A model generated the notes under the pieces. It made no database searches, was not told the origin of the DNA, and worked only from the letters and a program-made list of their open reading frames with translations. Shown in pieces: positions 2,039 through 37,854 of a DNA stretch of 41,907 nt. The DNA is from Acidobacteriota bacterium (lineage in GTDB: Bacteria; Acidobacteriota; UBA6911; JACOSC01). The stretch is from the NCBI GenBank assembly GCA_016179055.1, contig JACOSC010000169.1, positions 1 through 41,907 on the forward strand, written 5' to 3'. The stretch's first letter is position 1; every line of letters begins with the position of its first letter. The position numbers and the translations under genes were made by a program.

Positions 2039-3263
2039 ATGTCAAATCGTCGGTTAATTCTCTTCGCGGTTATAGGGCTCATTCTTACGAGCCAGGTCGG
2101 TGTGCCGTTGGCGGGTGTAGTGTGTAGCAATCCTGCCAACTGGCAATCGACACGGTTAGTACAACTGGAAGGCGCAACGGCTGGTGTCACCGCGGTGTCC
2201 TGGGCGCCATCGGATCCCATCACTCCTAACTAATGTACAGATCGCCACCGGTTCTGATGATGGTTTCGTCAGAATCTATAATATCACTGATCTCGAATTC
2301 TTAAATCCGAGTCAAGAGCTCCAGGTCGGGTCGGTGGGGTCATGTCGTATTAAAGCGGTTGCATGGTCTCCAGACCGGACGCGGATAGCCATCGGTACTT
2401 GGAATCCAAATAGTCCTGCGGTTACCTGTGAGCCCCAAGGTAGTAAGCTCGTGATATGGACCCCAGCGACAAATGCGACAGTTGTCGCCTACGAACCTGG
2501 CGGTGGTGTGAACGGCTTAGCCTGGTCACCAGATAGCCGGTTTCTTACCAGTACCGTCCAGCCCGGTCCTATTGCGGATGCCTACAAGATTCGGATATGG
2601 GATACGCAGAATATGGGACAACCGACCTACAGCGCGAATTCGTATTGCGAGGTAATGGTAGGGATAGCCTGGTCGTCGGATGGCGTACATATTGCGAGTG
2701 CTGGTACATCTTGCTTTCCAGGCTATATTACTTGCGGCGGACAAGTAGTTGGCACGAGTGGTCGGCAGGTAATACTGTGGAATGGTAACATCAACCCACC
2801 CACCTGCGGCTCTTTGCTTGGTCCGCGCCACAATGTCTCTTTAATATCTGTAGCGTTCTCACCAAAAGCCGACCTAGTGGCGGCCGGAAGTGCAGGAGGC
2901 CGTCCCCTGGATGATCCTTCGAAGATAGATATCTATAATGTCGCAACCGGCGCTTTGCTCGCCACATTGCCGGGGCACTCCGAGCGCAGTAATGTGCAGT
3001 CTTTGGATTGGTGTCCGGATGGGAGCTTACTTGCCAGCGCAGGCTTTAGCTCAGTTGAAGGATACGCGGACAGGCTCATTAAAATCTGGAACCCTGCAAG
3101 TCCAGACCCGGTACGCCAACTCACTGGCGACAACTGCTGTTATGGCGTGTACTCGGTGGCCTGGTCCCCTGACGGTAAGTTTCTCGCCAGTGGAAGTTCT
3201 GACGGGAAGGGTAAGATTTGGGGTGCCTATGAAAATTTAAACCCACTGAGGCGTCTCCGTTAA
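2039..3263 (+). pseudogene. WD40-repeat protein with signal peptide, apparently frameshifted near 2215-2235
   Basis: ATG at 2039 preceded by GAGAAGGAGG. MSNRRLILFAVIGLILTSQVGVPLAG... 'VTAVSWAPSDPITPN*' ends at 2233, while the next frame continues 'LLTNVQIATGSDDGFVRIYN...' through further WD40 repeats to 3263. Confidence 0.75.
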
Positions 3264-3412
3264 AAGAGGGCTGAGGAAAAACAGAAATCTTTGATCTGAG
3301 TTGTGTTTATGGATGTGCCCGTCGAGCCGCCGGTTTAGCGGTTGCGGGCGTGCACTGATCGGCACAACCATCGACGCAGAAGGATCCACCACGGCCGTCA
3401 AAACCATTACTA

Positions 3413-3700
3413 TCTGACAAGATGAGATTGTGCTGATACGGGCAAAATATTTTTTGTAGGTCGGGTTTCGTCCTTTATTCATGCGAGTATTTGACGGGTT
3501 TGAAGCCCCTCCAACATGGCCTCTCCCTTCTCACCACAGAGGCACAGAGTCCATCGAGGAATACGGCCGTCATTCAATCTTTCATTTGTTCTGTGATTTT
3601 GTTCAAATCCATTTCTTGGCTTCTCAGTGGGCACTGTGTCTCTGTGGCGCCTACTCACCTCGCCACCGCTCAGACCAGCACTCTTGTCACAGTCTCGATA
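3413..3700 (+). repeat. Dispersed intergenic repeat, copy A (contains ACCACAGAGGCACAGAG...CTCTGTGGCGCC inverted ends)
   Basis: Shares 'tctgacaagatga', 'aaaatatttttt', 'ctttattcatgcg(a/g)gtatttgacgg' with 5824-5922. Shares 'ctccaacatg(g/c)cctct(c/t)ccttc(t/a)caccacagag' and 'cctctgtggcgcctactcacctcgcc' with the reverse complement of 18620-18790. Confidence 0.75.
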
Positions 3701-3701
3701 G

Positions 3702-5330
3702 CTAACTAATCTTGAAATTTGATTCGGTCTCGACTTTCTTGCCGGTAATGTTGTCGGTGACTACGATCCGTAATCGATATTCCCCAGAACCCAGATCGGT
3801 TAATGGCAACGCCTTAACCACAACCACACGACTGGCCGAAAAGAATTCGATCGACTTTCCCTCCCGATCCTCAATCTTCTTAACTACTCGGCTCCCCTGG
3901 AGAATCGAATATTCAATCGCCATGACCGGCGCCGATTTGGATTGATCAATGCTCATGTTATACACTTGCATATAAACTGGTAGGTCACTGTTGGGGAGAA
4001 AATTGGCGGACACGTTGGGGATAACTTTCAAATCGCCGATGACAAACTGCTCTTTTTGCGATGAAATCAGGTTCCGTATAGATTTGATGCTGGAGGCCAG
4101 AATCACGGAGCTGGCGCCGAGATCGGTCTCCGCCAATTTGGGAACCAGTATCAACTGTTCATCGGTGGTCGTATTACCGCTGTTGACGTCTTTGATAACT
4201 AAATCCAAGCGGTAACGGCCGGGACGCAACGAAAGCATTTTCTGGTAAACCGATTTGGTTTGGCGACCTTGCTCAATGGTCCGCGCGTCATAGTCAGCCG
4301 TGATGGTATCTTCAAACTCCGCCTCGATTCGGCCGGTAAGGCCTTTTACGGCGCCGTATATATTGACAATGCCGCGATGCGTGGTTCCTTCGACTTTGAA
4401 CTGCAGGTCGCTGTTGCGCAGCTCGATGGTAAAGGGCACCAGCGTTTGTTGCGAATTGACTCGAATCATGTCGATGCGAGACAGGAAGGGCAACTGTTTG
4501 AAGCTGATCCTGGCGGTGACGGCGGCTTGCAGATCTTTGAACTTGATGGCGGGCGGGCGCTGCAAATTGACGTATTGCGCCAATCGTTCAAAAGGCATAT
4601 CTTTCTGACGCAAGCTATAGAGCTGTGTCTGCGGATCGGCCGTGGGGTTAAAGTACGGTCGTTGCGCTTTAGTAGTCATGCCCATCATCTCCGACTCTGT
4701 CAACCCGGCGTTCGGCACAAATAGGAGAGCATCCTTCTCATCCGGCGAGAGCGCGATACGGTACTCGCCGCTCATCGATTTGTCGACGAACTCTATTTCC
4801 ACATCGTCGCCCACGCCGTCAATGTGCCGGTACCGCCACACCTCGAAGGGAAACGTGGACGTGCTGCCGCCACCTTCGTAAAATTTGCGCTGGTAGCTGC
4901 CGCCGGAAGGGTGGGATTCAATCTCATCCGGCTTTCCGAACGTAATGTAAATGCGGCCGCGGTCGGTTTTCCATCCGGGGATGCCGGAAGCAAATCGCTC
5001 GTTGGCGTAGGTGATGCGCCGATAGTGCTCCTCTTTGAATTCGTTTTCCGATGTGCCTTGGGATGGCGCGCGACGCATCCAAAAATTCTCGATGAACCGT
5101 TCTTTCTCATCGTTGGTCGTGAGTTTCTTGAACACGTCTTTTTCATCAGGTGTGATAATATACGTGATCTCTTCGTTGAGCCACTTGTCAAAGTAGCGGT
5201 CCGATTCGGTCCGTTTTTCTTTCTTGACTTTTCCGGTCTTTCCGGCCGCGGCCATTTCAGGAAAGTTGTATCCCAACGTGGCGATGAGCGCGAAGATAAG
5301 TCCCCTAATAAGACAATTTCTAAGTGCCAT
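3702..5330 (-). CDS. GWxTD domain-containing protein with signal peptide
   Basis: Internal start MALRNCLIRGLIFALIATLGYNFPEMAAA at 5330, preceded by AGAAGGAGGG. Motif 'ERFASGIPGWKTDRGRIYITFGKPDEIESHPSGG' is the GWxTD signature. Confidence 0.88.
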   Translation of the reverse strand: MALRNCLIRGLIFALIATLGYNFPEMAAAGKTGKVKKEKRTESDRYFDKWLNEEITYIITPDEKDVFKKLTTNDEKERFIENFWMRRAPSQGTSENEFKEEHYRRITYANERFASGIPGWKTDRGRIYITFGKPDEIESHPSGGSYQRKFYEGGGSTSTFPFEVWRYRHIDGVGDDVEIEFVDKSMSGEYRIALSPDEKDALLFVPNAGLTESEMMGMTTKAQRPYFNPTADPQTQLYSLRQKDMPFERLAQYVNLQRPPAIKFKDLQAAVTARISFKQLPFLSRIDMIRVNSQQTLVPFTIELRNSDLQFKVEGTTHRGIVNIYGAVKGLTGRIEAEFEDTITADYDARTIEQGRQTKSVYQKMLSLRPGRYRLDLVIKDVNSGNTTTDEQLILVPKLAETDLGASSVILASSIKSIRNLISSQKEQFVIGDLKVIPNVSANFLPNSDLPVYMQVYNMSIDQSKSAPVMAIEYSILQGSRVVKKIEDREGKSIEFFSASRVVVVKALPLTDLGSGEYRLRIVVTDNITGKKVETESNFKIS

Positions 5331-31674: not shown

Positions 31675-31772
31675 TGGCGGAGGTGCATGGGAATCGAACC
31701 CACCGATCCCGACTTCCGTCGGGACCCACTGGATTTGAAGTCCAGGCAGGACACCAGCCCCGATTCACCTCC
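31675..31772 (-). tRNA. selC: tRNA-Sec (anticodon UCA), with encoded CCA
   Basis: Reverse complement GGAGGTGAATCGGGGCTGGTGTCCTGCCTGGACTTCAAATCCAGTGGGTCCCGACGGAAGTCGGGATCGGTGGGTTCGATTCCCATGCACCTCCGCCA. Extended acceptor, CTGGACTTCAAATCCAG anticodon arm, long variable arm, GGTTCGATTCC T-arm. Confidence 0.96.
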
Positions 31773-31863: not shown

Positions 31864-32916
31864 TTAGCCGTGTAACACTTTTGTAACACTTTTTTCCGTT
31901 TCGGCTGCGTCGCACAGCAAATCGACCGCCTGCCGCTGTGAACTGCTGTGCGCGTAGCGCATCGTCATGGTGATTGTACTGTGCCCGAGCAGATCTTTGA
32001 TCGTAACGATATCTACACCCTTCGCGGAGAGGCGTGTCGCAAATGAGTGTCGCAGATCGTGTAGGCGTAGGTCTTCGATTCCAACCTGCTTGTAGAGCTT
32101 CTCAAAGTGATCGCGCAGGGTCTCTCGGTTGTACGGCTGGCCGTTGGTCTTGCGAAAGACGTAGTCGCTCGTAGCTTGGGCCTTCAGTTCCACTAAAACG
32201 GCATACGCCCGCGCATTGATCGGAATCAGTAACCGCTTTTTACTCTTGCAATTCGTAGCCTCCACCACGAGTTGCCGAAAGGATAAGCTCACATTGGACC
32301 ACTTGAGTGAGAGCAGCTCACCCCGGCGCAAACCGGTATTGAGTGCCAGAATGATAAGCGGCCGAAGATAAGCCAGCGATCCCATACACGCTTCGAGTAG
32401 GCGCGTTTCCTCCGGTTCGGTTAGTACGTGTGCGATCTGATTATCCTCTTTAAAGAACTCCACGCCTTTGACCGGATTCTTATCGGCCATACCCCACGCG
32501 ATGGCTTTGTTGTACAAGGTCTTAAGCAGGGCTAACTCTCGATTAACGGTAGCCTTCTTCACTTGACCGGCTCGCACCGCTTTGTAATCGACAATCTTTT
32601 TCTGATCGATAGCACTTAGGTAGTAATTCTTGAAGCGTGGGAGTAAGTGCTTGCGAATAGTCAATTCGTCACGCCACCCGGAGCGCTTTAATGTCGCATG
32701 TTTCTCAAGAAACACACGGCAGAAATCATCAAACCGGGTCCGCTTTGGACTATCTAATTTGAATTTTCCGCGCTCGGTATCCGCACAAATTACTAAATAT
32801 CGACGCTCAGCCTCGCGCTAATTATTTGTTTTCAGCGATAAATGTATTCGCTTCCCTTCAGTGGCATCAGACATATAACTCATCCACCAGTATTTTCCTC
32901 TATGGTAAAGTCCCAT
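31864..32916 (-). pseudogene. Tyrosine recombinase/integrase interrupted by one in-frame amber codon (32818-32820)
   Basis: ATG at 32916 with GGAGG upstream: MGLYHRGKYWWMSYMSDATEGKRIHLSLKTNN*REAERRYLVICADTERGKFKLDSPKRTRFDDFCRVFLEKHATLKR... Catalytic residues present: 'LNTGLRRGELLSL', 'LHDLRHSFATRLS', 'LGHSTITMTMRYAH'. Confidence 0.9.
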
Positions 32917-33248: not shown

Positions 33249-33401
33249 CGACACAACTGACACAACCTCCTCTGCTGCACCTAAATTATTATTTTCTCGG
33301 TTGTTGTACCACTTTTCACGCGTTGACACAACCGCTGACACAACCCGGTTGTGTCAGCGCCCTTCCTCCATCGAAGGAGGTTGTGTCGGCTTTTGTCAGC
33401 G
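33249..33401. repeat. Iteron-like array of TGACACAACC sites with a perfect dyad
   Basis: Sites at 33249 (CGACACAAC), 33258, 33324, 33336 (forward) and 33347, 33379 (reverse), plus the partial TTTTGTCAGCG at 33391. CGCTGACACAACC-C-GGTTGTGTCAGCG is a perfect palindrome. Confidence 0.75.
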
Positions 33402-33478: not shown

Positions 33479-35482
33479 TTACGGGAGACCCGGTACGTCA
33501 CCGTCTTCACGCGACGTGTCCTCAGGAAATTCCTTAACGATCTGCTCCCAGGCGAGCCGTTCCGCGTCGGCCCGCGGCAGCCCGCCGTCGTCCTCCATAA
33601 TAGCCGCTCGTTCCTCCCACGCCAGGCGCTGATCCGCCGGCCAAGCGCGGACCTGCTCCTGGATAGGGACTTCGCGGGAGGCGCTCTCCAGGAAAGCGTC
33701 TGCTGCCGTCGATTCGGATGGGCTTACAGTGTCCATCGCACCCGACGCGGAAGTGCCCTCCGCGTGGGCCGCCGCGGCATTCGACGGATGGTGGGGGGCC
33801 GAGTTGGCATCGGCGGCCGAAGCGATGACAAAGAGGGAATACGGACGGCCGCCCTGGCACAACGGGCCGATTCGCTCGACCCGGACCAACCCGCGTTCCA
33901 CCAATAGCTGTAATTGCTCTTCCGCCTGCACGGCATCCCTATACTGCCGATTCGAACGCATCAATTCACGAACCGTAATCCGCCCCCCTTTCCGCTGGAT
34001 TAAATCCAGCAGTTGTCGTTGCAGACGTTCCTCGGGCGTTTCGGCCAAGGCGTAGTAGACGCGCCGGGCCTCCTGACCGAACCACTGGCTGAGCACCACG
34101 CCAGCGGTGATACTGGCCTTATCGACTTCGGTCTGGGATTCGAGCCCCAGGTCACCCGCCGCCCAGCGGATCCCGTGCACCACCAGCGCCAGCCGGGCGG
34201 CGTACCCTTCCAGCTTCGACCAAGCCGCCGTCAGATCGTGATCCAGAATATCGGCCTGCTCTTGGGCATGGGCATTATAGAACGCCACCCACGCGGCACG
34301 GGCTGAGGTGGTCATTGGAACCTTCACCGGCTCTACGGCCCCATCATCCAAGGTGTGGAAGGTCAAGCTCAGTAATCGGTCAAAAATTCGCGCCACACAC
34401 TCTTCGTGCCTCGGGTCCAGATCGGTCTCGCTCCACTGCTTGATTTGCCGGGGCGGCATCGCAAACAATAAACGGGCCGCCAACCCGTTCTCGAAATACG
34501 TGCGCCCCAACGACGCTTGGAGAATGTGCGGCTGAATGTTGCCGGTCACGCTGACGGCCGCCCGCGGTACATAAATAGTCTTTAGCGGCCCGGTTTTGCG
34601 ATCCACCAGCAGCGGGCCGGCGCGATGCAGTTCCAACCAGTGCGCTTCATCGACGCCGCTTTTCTTATACTGGTTGAACCCCTGCAGCCAGCCGGCCAAT
34701 TCATCCCGTACGATCAGCAATCCCCGCGGCGCATGCTTGAGCAACACCGCCAGTGCCTCCATCGTGGTATCGGAACAATAATACCGCTCCGCCAAGGGCT
34801 CTTCGGGTTTCGACGGCGGGACCTCGCCCGCTTGCCGTCCCGTTTTCTTCCACGCCGCCACCGCGCATTCGTATTCGAGGGCCTGATCTTGGTATTCCGC
34901 GACCGCCGCCTCATAACGCGCCAGCGCTTCGCTTTGTTTCCGCTTCAAGAGGCGCAGGGCCAAATCGAGCGCCGGGAATTTCAGCGTACCGGAATCGCTG
35001 ACCACGGCGGTCCATAGCACGGCCGGCTCGGTCCAGTTCCGTTTCAGTTGTATGCGACGCGTGTTGCCCATGGCCGCCGCCAGCGCCGCCAAGAGCGGTA
35101 AAGCAATGAAACTCGTATCGCAGCCGATGGTCTGGGTGCCCTCGATCACGAAGGAGCGAATCGGTTCCGGCAGTGCGTGGACCGGAAAGGGCCGGTACGC
35201 ATCGATCTCCCCGGCGGTCATCGCCGCGTCCGTTTCCGATGGGGCAAACGCCGGCGCCTCGGTCACGAGTTGTGCCAAGGCTTCCCGCGTGCCCCGCGGG
35301 CGAGCCAGTCGGAGACGTCGCCTTTCGGCGGTAGACCTGGTAATTCCACGATTCGGATTCGTTGCGCGTGGCCGTAGAGGCTTCGGGCGACCGCGTCCAT
35401 GTGGCGGACACTCGGCACATCTTGGTCGGGCAGCAGAACTACATCGGCCCCACGTAAGCACTCGCTGTAGGACTCGCGCCAC
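33479..35482 (-). CDS. DUF3987-type primase/helicase-like protein (C-terminal part of the CHC2-Toprim protein in another frame)
   Basis: 'AYRPFPVHALPEPIRSFVIEGTQTIGCDTSFIALPLLAALAAAMGNTRRIQLKRNWTEPAVLWTAVVSDSGTLKFPAL...LLIVRDELAGWLQGFNQYK'. The N-terminal ~60 aa of the listed ORF overlap the Toprim frame and are probably not real. Confidence 0.8.
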   Translation of the reverse strand: MARVLQRVLTWGRCSSAARPRCAECPPHGRGRPKPLRPRATNPNRGITRSTAERRRLRLARPRGTREALAQLVTEAPAFAPSETDAAMTAGEIDAYRPFPVHALPEPIRSFVIEGTQTIGCDTSFIALPLLAALAAAMGNTRRIQLKRNWTEPAVLWTAVVSDSGTLKFPALDLALRLLKRKQSEALARYEAAVAEYQDQALEYECAVAAWKKTGRQAGEVPPSKPEEPLAERYYCSDTTMEALAVLLKHAPRGLLIVRDELAGWLQGFNQYKKSGVDEAHWLELHRAGPLLVDRKTGPLKTIYVPRAAVSVTGNIQPHILQASLGRTYFENGLAARLLFAMPPRQIKQWSETDLDPRHEECVARIFDRLLSLTFHTLDDGAVEPVKVPMTTSARAAWVAFYNAHAQEQADILDHDLTAAWSKLEGYAARLALVVHGIRWAAGDLGLESQTEVDKASITAGVVLSQWFGQEARRVYYALAETPEERLQRQLLDLIQRKGGRITVRELMRSNRQYRDAVQAEEQLQLLVERGLVRVERIGPLCQGGRPYSLFVIASAADANSAPHHPSNAAAAHAEGTSASGAMDTVSPSESTAADAFLESASREVPIQEQVRAWPADQRLAWEERAAIMEDDGGLPRADAERLAWEQIVKEFPEDTSREDGDVPGLP

Positions 35483-36048
35483 TTGCCGGCCCCCATCGGG
35501 TTCGTGGTCGTCGCCAATCCCAGTACGGCCAGCGTGTCGGCATCCTTCTCACCCTCCACAATAAAAATCCTCTGGCCGGCGGACACGGCGGCCACCACCG
35601 CCGGTAGGTGGTACAGCACGTGCCGCGTCCCCTCCAGGTTGTGGATCCAGCCGCCGTGACCGTCGGGCCGGCGTTGCCTAAACGTTTTCTTTTTCTTACC
35701 GTGCCCGGTCCATTCGTAGCGCAGTGTTTGAAAGAGCAACGCGCCGGCTTCATCCACATACGCGTACACGGCCACCGGCGACCCCCAGCGGGACCCGCCC
35801 GGCGAAGGAGTCTGCGGAGCGGCCGGGAACAAATCCTTGGGCGACAAGCCCAGGGTGTGGAGAATGGTCTCCAAGCTACAACCGGCAAAGCACTTAATCA
35901 GCACTGTCCCGTCGGACGCTTCCTTAATCGAGAGGCTTGGCGTCCGGTCCTCATGCGCGGGACAGCGGGCTTGCCAGCCCGTCCCGGATCGTTTAAGACC
36001 CTGGAGGCTGGCCTGCAATTTTTCTATCGGACGACGAAACGTTTCCAT
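35263..36048 (-). CDS. CHC2 zinc-finger/Toprim primase-like protein
   Basis: 'GWQARCPAHEDRTPSLSIKEASDGTVLIKCFAGCSLETIL', Toprim 'IFIVEGEKDADTLAVLGLATTTNPMGAGKW...DVVLLPDQD'. Confidence 0.9.
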   Translation of the reverse strand: METFRRPIEKLQASLQGLKRSGTGWQARCPAHEDRTPSLSIKEASDGTVLIKCFAGCSLETILHTLGLSPKDLFPAAPQTPSPGGSRWGSPVAVYAYVDEAGALLFQTLRYEWTGHGKKKKTFRQRRPDGHGGWIHNLEGTRHVLYHLPAVVAAVSAGQRIFIVEGEKDADTLAVLGLATTTNPMGAGKWRESYSECLRGADVVLLPDQDVPSVRHMDAVARSLYGHAQRIRIVELPGLPPKGDVSDWLARGARGKPWHNS

Positions 36049-36063
36049 AGCACGCCCTTCGGC

Positions 36064-36276
36064 TCACTCCCCACGCGCCTTTTTTGACCGCCGGTCTTTT
36101 TCCGGCTGTGTCCAGGTTAGAATTTCCGAGTACAGGAACACGACCCGCGCGCCCACCTTGCGGAAGGGAATGCGCGCCTCCGAAACCATGGCATAGATGG
36201 TCTTCGGCGAGACGCGCAGAAGTTCGGCGCACTCGGCCACGGTCAAGAATTTGGTTTCATCCTGCGGGTTCATCAT
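36064..36276 (-). CDS. Helix-turn-helix (excisionase/AlpA-like) DNA-binding protein 1
   Basis: 'MMNPQDETKFLTVAECAELLRVSPKTIYAMVSEARIPFRKVGARVVFLYSEILTW'. GAGAGGAG upstream. Confidence 0.85.
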   Translation of the reverse strand: MMNPQDETKFLTVAECAELLRVSPKTIYAMVSEARIPFRKVGARVVFLYSEILTWTQPEKDRRSKKARGE

Positions 36277-36326
36277 GGTTGGGGCTCCTCTCTTAAGCCT
36301 TAAAACCGGCGAAGGGATTAACGCCC

Positions 36327-37310
36327 TCACCGCAATTCCAGCAACGCTTCCGTGACTCGTTCGGAGCCTTGCTCTTGGTCCACTAATTGGGCCAATACGA
36401 AAAGGGGCTGCCACAAGTCCCGTTCGCGATCGCGCGCACCTTTTAGACTCCACCCATACCGGGCCTGCGGGTAGCGCTCCGCGATCACGCCGGCGTAGTT
36501 CAAACCAAAGATGTAAAGACCGTCGGTAATCAACGATGTCCGATCGCGCGCGTGGACGCGCAGCCCTTCCCGGCTTATCGTTTCGGTGGGCTCCTTGCGG
36601 ACCATACCGATAGGAAGGGCTATATCCCATAGGGTCTCTCTGGCCGCATGACAGCCTACGATAACTTTGGGGCTATAGGTCGTGTAACGGCGCAATGCAA
36701 ATCCGTCGACCGCGGGTTCCCAGGACGGCACGACCAACCCGTCTCTAAACCCTGAGGTGAGCACCGCACGGCTCAAACGCGCCGAACGGAGTTCCTGCCA
36801 ATCGTCGATCAACAAGGTGACACCGCTATCGGCCAGACCACGGAGCGTGCCGCCGTGAAGATCCACACAGAACACGCCACTGAACACGAGCGGCTGCACC
36901 GTCTCCAGCAGCAGGGTCTTGCCGCAGCGCGGATGCAGGCCGTGGACCCAGAGATACGGATACGTGCGGAACAGCCGGTACAGGTAAGTCCCCAGGACCC
37001 AGAGCGCCACCAGGGTATAGTAGCTGTCGGGTATCAGCACCACGCGCGGGCGGACATACTGGCGCACCATCTGATAGACGGCCGCCGCCGGTACGTCTTT
37101 TCCGGTCATATAGTCCGACAATCCGTCCTGCGAAAAATCCGACGTCGGAATCCACGAGGAAACCCTATGTAGCCCCTCGTGTATCCAGTCGGCGGGGCTA
37201 AATACCGTGTGATCAGACCGGACTAAATGTCGCTCGTCGCCCACACGGACGCCGTAATACAGATGGCTATTCACGCAGTCTTGCGTTGGTTTGATGTTGG
37301 TTGGTCTCAT
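36327..37310 (-). CDS. P-loop ATPase/helicase-like protein of mobile-element type (DUF3631/D5-like)
   Basis: 'YPYLWVHGLHPRCGKTLLLETVQPL' (Walker A-like GKT), 'DSGVTLLIDDWQEL' (Walker B-like). Confidence 0.65.
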   Translation of the reverse strand: MRPTNIKPTQDCVNSHLYYGVRVGDERHLVRSDHTVFSPADWIHEGLHRVSSWIPTSDFSQDGLSDYMTGKDVPAAAVYQMVRQYVRPRVVLIPDSYYTLVALWVLGTYLYRLFRTYPYLWVHGLHPRCGKTLLLETVQPLVFSGVFCVDLHGGTLRGLADSGVTLLIDDWQELRSARLSRAVLTSGFRDGLVVPSWEPAVDGFALRRYTTYSPKVIVGCHAARETLWDIALPIGMVRKEPTETISREGLRVHARDRTSLITDGLYIFGLNYAGVIAERYPQARYGWSLKGARDRERDLWQPLFVLAQLVDQEQGSERVTEALLELR

Positions 37311-37419: not shown

Positions 37420-37644
37420 TTACGAAGCGTCGCTCGGCCGCTGGCGCTCCGCCGCCTTGTGCAACTCGATCCAACGGTCGAGGTCACGGACATCGAAGCG
37501 GAGGGACCGCCGATCGCGGCCGACCCGCAGCGAAGGCAGCCGCTTCGTCTTGGCATAGTCGTAAACGCTGCTGAGTGGCAGGCCGAGATACTCGGCCACT
37601 TCCGATGCGCTCAGCAAGCGGGGGGTAATAGTAGCTCGCTTCAT
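37420..37644 (-). CDS. Helix-turn-helix (excisionase/AlpA-like) DNA-binding protein 2
   Basis: 'MKRATITPRLLSASEVAEYLGLPLSSVYDYAKTKRLPSLRVGRDRRSLRFDVRDLDRWIEL'. AAGGAG upstream of the ATG at 37644. Confidence 0.87.
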   Translation of the reverse strand: MKRATITPRLLSASEVAEYLGLPLSSVYDYAKTKRLPSLRVGRDRRSLRFDVRDLDRWIELHKAAERQRPSDAS

Positions 37645-37854
37645 GCATAGGCTCCTTAGAAACTTCCCTAGTTTCATCGTTGTTCTGCGTGTCGTTAGAC
37701 AAGCTGGGGGACTCCTTTCTAGCTCTAGTCACGCGCCGCTTTTTGAAACCCTCGCCCGGCGGAGGACGCGTCTGCCCGTGGGGGAGGAAACGGAGGACCG
37801 TTGGGTTTCCCCTGGGCCACGCGCCGTCCGTCCGGGCGAGGTTCCGCTCCGCGT

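Follow-up and report, generated by a model that had tools for sequence, protein, structure and literature searches.

What reads a dense cluster of short repeats that lies between a predicted helicase gene and an integrase gene of a mobile element in an Acidobacteriota genome? The window analysed here is a whole contig of 41,907 nucleotides, and its repeats lie in the gap that separates the integrase ATG (32916) from the stop codon (33479) of a gene of the DUF3987 family (PF13148). An initial annotation made from the sequence had offered three readings for them, namely an iteron-type replication origin, integrase arm sites, or an operator for one of the helix-turn-helix (HTH) proteins. As described below, we consider it probable that the array is a cis-acting recognition site, most likely a replication origin, read by the element's own DUF3987 helicase.

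The repeat array and the genes around it

The array comprises seven 9-bp copies of YGACAMAA[C/G] at 33249-33398, four on the plus strand followed by three on the minus strand, and its nearest copy lies 81 nt beyond the DUF3987 stop (Table 1). The initial annotation, which had reported at least six copies of a 9-10 bp word, was therefore right about the array; the repeat that it took for a half-site at 33391 is present as well, as a seventh copy that differs solely in its last base. The 13-1-13 palindrome that it described is perfect, and so are the mirrored outer arms (33246-33257/33380-33391 and 33259-33271/33375-33387), including the CCTCC and GGAGG pentamers noted beside them. Iterons are spaced by 9-10 bp in the outer arms and by 12 bp in the inner copies. 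The outer arms, 33249-33266 and 33380-33398, enclose a stretch of 80% A+T (33283-33302), compared with 35-37% in the flanks and the DUF3987 gene. Note that this stretch is off-centre and that extra inner copies are present.

Table 1. Coordinates of the repeats and genes of the element in the window
Feature	Position	Strand	Remark
Outer arm, tandem iterons CGACACAAC, TGACACAAC	33249-33257, 33258-33266	+	9-bp period
A+T-rich stretch, candidate unwinding site	33283-33302		80% A+T; role putative
Inner iterons TGACACAACC and TGACACAACC	33324-33332, 33336-33344	+	12 bp apart
Perfect 13-1-13 palindrome (one + iteron, one - iteron)	33333-33345/33347-33359		without terminator-type T run
Iteron TGACACAAC	33348-33356	-	word match
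Outer arm, iterons TGACAAAAG, CGACACAAC	33380-33388, 33390-33398	-	10 bp apart
DUF3987 (PF13148) gene, 595 aa	33479-35266	-	GTG start
Predicted C-terminal winged helix, proposed iteron-binding domain	33824-34036	-	AlphaFold2; binding putative
DnaG-type primase	35263-36048	-	CHC2 zinc ribbon; PHROG DNA primase
AlpA-like HTH_17 protein	36064-36300	-	domain match
ATPase-like protein	36327-37310	-	related to helicase part of primase-helicases of other genomes
Second AlpA-like HTH_17 protein	37420-37677	-	domain match
Tyrosine integrase	31864-32916	-	ATG 32916; in-frame TAG 32818-32820
tRNA-Sec	31675-31772	same as integrase	only Rfam match

The exact word GACACAACC is located at 33259, 33325 and 33337 on the plus strand and at 33347 and 33379 on the minus strand; these five copies compare with 0.23 expected in the window, and five were reached in 0 of 100 shuffles. 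The word had been expected to cluster only here, and counting it across the 5.3-Mb genome gave 29 exact copies, five of them in the array and 24 elsewhere. The tandem dimer YGACAMAACYGACAMAAC matched the genome only at 33249, and tolerating one mismatch added no further site. The locus thus has the properties of an iteron origin in that a short word is clustered in an array and rare elsewhere in the replicon, the array adjoins a predicted helicase gene which follows a primase gene, and the spacing is regular and helical (9-10 bp in the outer arms, with relatives having 9 or 18 bp).

Along the coding direction of the helicase gene, two AlpA-like genes with the ATPase-like gene between them come first, followed by the DnaG-type primase, DUF3987, the array, the integrase and tRNA-Sec. 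The GTG start of the DUF3987 gene and the primase stop share 4 nt (GTGA), and this overlap sets the start of the 595-aa protein. The integrase frame is interrupted by the TAG 32 codons past its ATG, and its remaining catalytic frame is open; the TAG may reflect a pseudogene, readthrough or a sequencing error. The tRNA-Sec gene lies just 3' of the integrase, so that the tRNA 5' end faces the element. Elements that target tRNA genes usually sit at the tRNA 3' end, and a 5'-end placement is unusual. A second, degenerate element in the same genome (contig C108, locus L057, 7446-9929) has an integrase with a disrupted frame, likewise beside the 5' end of a tRNA, here tRNA-Leu. It also contains part of a gene related to that of the window ATPase. 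A search for a displaced tRNA-Sec fragment at the other end of the window element gave no match longer than 13 nt, and the right end was not located.

Recurrence of the word at the 3' end of DUF3987 genes

We retrieved related loci by protein similarity alone. A search of genome contigs and viral contigs with a single DUF3987 protein found no relatives, and a 10-member alignment was too diverse, so that a profile of three DUF3987 proteins was used, which yielded 80 GTDB and 62 IMG/VR loci. The closest proteins (45-55% identity) were from Planctomycetota, and those at 28-33% were mostly from Alphaproteobacteria. Divergent viral loci were thinned by hand (35 of 62 kept) before the word and motif-free counts, and the word was counted in 111 loci with a readable DUF3987 stop, which came from Planctomycetota, Alphaproteobacteria and viral contigs. 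Within 250 bp of the stop, a zone set following an initial inspection of the data, YGACAMAAC had 105 matches, compared with 14 in the remaining ±3 kb. Of four control words, scrambled or reversed, three had no match in the zone and one had a single match; the frame-shifted register AACYGACAM had 56, as expected from tandem copies. Note that the canonical word was absent near the stop in 71 of the 111 loci.

With the window included, the consensus was AACYGACAMAACC, and same-strand copies were spaced by 9 bp (29 pairs) or 18 bp (19 pairs). Same-strand pairs 9-10 or 18-19 bp apart were found in 20 zones, again including the window, and nowhere else in 1.13 Mb. The forward arm preceded the reverse arm in 23 of 23 two-strand loci (window included), an order with a random chance of 4e-17 if the loci were independent, which close relatives are not. 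Shuffled zones contained two word copies in 1 of 2240 cases. When no motif was specified, some 10-mer reached at least four copies in 34 of 121 zones, compared with 56 of 1414 other windows and 2 of 121 shuffled zones. The array also appears in Mesorhizobium denitrificans (L171), whose protein is 30-33% identical, as TTTGACACAACTGACACAACTGACAAAACC...GGTTTTGTCAGTTGTGTCAGTTGTGTCAAA. Furthermore, the dimer was present in 12 of 15 whole alphaproteobacterial genomes with DUF3987, and all 25 dimer matches adjoined a DUF3987 gene, a second copy in one genome included; a reversed-pattern control had no match in the same 15 genomes. The initial annotation had held that an array without conservation in homologous elements would speak against its proposal, and the word, the phasing and the two-arm layout do recur in them. 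Because they recur at the DUF3987 3' end across phyla, the iteron origin is strongly favoured among the three readings first offered.

This recurrence also bears on the alternatives. Integrase arm-type sites, as parts of attP to which the integrase would bind through its arm domain, consist of short repeats that face both ways, and the integrase adjoins the array in the window. However, arm sites are disfavoured because the Pfam-identified integrase lies more than 3 kb away (3-4 kb) in three alphaproteobacterial elements (L171, L181 and L202), on the far side of the primase-DUF3987 pair, where the array stays at the stop codon. In addition, the tRNA-Sec gene is 1.5 kb from the array and shares no att-like repeat with it, and we regard this reading as very improbable. 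We also think it highly unlikely that the array is an operator through which an HTH regulator, AlpA-like or other, controls integrase or replication genes. The element does encode two AlpA-like proteins, and the array is upstream of the integrase along its direction of transcription. On the other hand, the position of the array is fixed at the DUF3987 3' end, with no downstream gene in common, a promoter scan found no sigma-70-like promoter at the array, and two to three phased iterons per arm would be unlike a single-dimer operator.

Inverted repeats right behind a stop codon could also suggest a transcription terminator of the primase-DUF3987 operon, the more so as the window strand folds strongly (z -5.7) and single pairs, such as ACAAAACCCC...GGGGTTTTGT in L215, resemble a bidirectional terminator. 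Loci with one copy per strand, such as L215, could indeed be terminators. For the array itself we give this explanation very little credence, since a terminator scan was negative at the window array, and a terminator could do without tandem copies at 9/18 bp and without a conserved GACA core. A search of IMG/VR for the exact palindrome found one contig (L056), with a single inverted pair just after a gene, which was judged to be a chance terminator-like hairpin.

Other words at the same position, and the word beside other genes

Other GAC repeats lie near the stop in many or most of those Planctomycetota relatives that are closest; GTWGACGTWGAC, for example, has 17 matches in 21 kb of zones vs 3 in 380 kb elsewhere. 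In the close Planctomycetota loci L132-L149, repeats of the GTTGAC, GTAGAC or GGTGAC type lie inside the last 250 bp of the DUF3987 gene and give repetitive protein tails, e.g. VDVDSVDT. Divergent viral contigs carry GTGTAAC-like words beside DUF3987, and DUF3987 plasmids (L069 of 7.6 kb, L070, L071, L107, L110 and others) have arrays of different words, of GTGGACT, TGACA and other types, at the gene 3' end. Some DUF3987 loci have no array. In the distant homologues L060, L062, L066 and L025 of other genomes, too, the helicase gene has dense arrays of other 10-mers at its 3' end, sometimes inside the coding sequence. Those of L060 (7503-7690), L062 (4907-5190) and L066 (5583-5722) are two-strand arrays inside the 3' end of non-DUF3987 primase-helicase genes, and CCGGAACA is common to L060 and L066.

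The word is not exclusive to DUF3987, because 21 viral contigs in which no DUF3987 is detectable have a longer tandem version of it, several of them as 9-nt coding repeats in reading frames. In four of these contigs (L276 at 3021-5106, L282, L289 and L294), it directly follows a phage prim-pol/AAA_25 helicase-primase gene, whose protein has no detectable similarity to DUF3987. A profile of the DUF3987 winged helix described below did not match the L276 AAA_25 primase-helicase, and the two-arm gapped pattern had no match in the viral contigs. In L284 (5691-6060), another viral contig, three tandem copies of the word adjoin the DnaA-box-like TTATCCACA in an intergenic region.

The four contigs with the word after a prim-pol/AAA_25 gene would fit sites for a host-encoded factor or a partition protein used by several mobile elements. 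However, DUF3987 groups differ in their word, as one would expect of arrays that are read by a protein of the element itself, and the dimer is confined to the element in its own and its relatives' genomes; we find a host factor hardly plausible. A further idea, tentative and in our judgement unlikely, is that a single iteron code (YGACAMAAC in convergent arms with a 9-bp period) serves across phyla for mobile-element initiator helicases whose cores are unrelated (DUF3987 and prim-pol/AAA_25) and which would have acquired a compatible DNA-reading domain. If true, satellites, plasmids and phages would have an origin language in common.

The predicted initiator and comparison with known systems

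To return to the proposed origin read by DUF3987, we modelled the window protein, aligned with 37 relatives, using AlphaFold2 (mean pLDDT 87.1). The model has a C-terminal winged helix of three helices and two strands at residues 411-481 (pLDDT about 93-96). A Foldseek search of the PDB returned MCM helicases as top matches (best E 3.2e-5, probability 1.00), with low TM-scores of about 0.3. We thus predict that DUF3987 is an AAA+ helicase of the MCM-like kind whose C-terminal part holds a winged helix. Its Walker A motif in the window, SDSGTLKF, has Phe in place of the Ser/Thr after Lys (codon 97), a position occupied by Ser or Thr in 37 of 37 relatives. This substitution and the in-frame TAG of the integrase suggest that the window element has decayed, and its copy of the array may no longer be active.

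The initial annotation had named the AlpA-like proteins, the ATPase and the integrase as candidate binders; the DUF3987 helicase, absent from that list, is itself the likely one. We infer the binding, helicase loading, opening and replication at the array as follows. The C-terminal winged helix would bind the 9-bp iterons (consensus AAC-YGACAMAAC-C), and the two convergent arms would load two helicase rings facing opposite ways. The A+T-rich spacer would then open, the primase encoded just upstream would prime the exposed strands, and the excised circle would be replicated by the host polymerase.

PF13148 is annotated as of 'unknown function', yet many phyla have it in small plasmids and integrated elements, and one paper predicts that DUF3987 acts as a helicase when mobile elements replicate (PMC5862659). 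In the open-access literature on DUF3987, we found no paper that links it to iterons. Paired with a defined iteron and a constant position of the putative origin, DUF3987 becomes directly testable as a self-loading initiator, and the design rules (9-bp iterons, convergent arms) could be tested in short synthetic origins. The iteron word may serve as a motif for finding such elements, and an origin at the DUF3987 3' end would indicate where to seek those of PICMI-like and CP4-57-like elements.

PICMI, satellites of Vibrionaceae, have a minimal set of int, alpA and a primase modelled by DUF3987 (PF13148) and DUF5906 (PMC10803314); that paper describes no iteron origin, and the word 'iteron' is absent from it. 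The window likewise has int, alpA and a DUF3987 gene together. However, PICMI integrate downstream of fis, whereas the window integrase is beside tRNA-Sec and the DnaG-type primase of the element is encoded by a gene of its own. E. coli CP4-57 (intA-alpA-yfjI) shares int, alpA and a DUF3987 gene; at the yfjI stop, the 10-mer array method found no clear iteron array, just an A-rich 10-mer.

In SCCmec, the C-terminal domain of Cch2 binds direct repeats just downstream of its gene (PMC7581432). The window resembles this arrangement in having an initiator-type helicase with repeats just downstream, although Cch2 is a Primase_Cterm helicase with three 5-nt iterons and CCPol-MP as partner primase. 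The C-terminal domain of SaPI Rep binds iterons directly downstream of its own gene, apparently as two hexamers (PMC7581432), and PICI origins, which drive plasmid replication, have two iteron sets around an A+T-rich region (PMC6092414). SaPI/PICI, phage-inducible chromosomal islands of staphylococcal and Gram-negative type, and the window element have in common an integrase, an AlpA-like protein, a primase and an initiator helicase (PMC6092414, PMC7581432), as well as an origin, putative in the window, immediately 3' of the helicase gene with iteron sets and an A+T-rich stretch. In the window, the array is immediately 3' of the proposed initiator gene, and two iteron sets flank the A+T-rich region. 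The two differ in that the window gene matches solely PF13148 in Pfam, whereas SaPI Reps are of the DUF927 or Primase_Cterm/D5_N type, in that the window primase is DnaG-type and those of SaPIbov1 and SaPI5 are AEP-type, and in the 9-bp YGACAMAAC iteron of the window. A self-loading initiator with downstream iterons is of a known kind, and the initiator family and its conserved iteron appear to be new.
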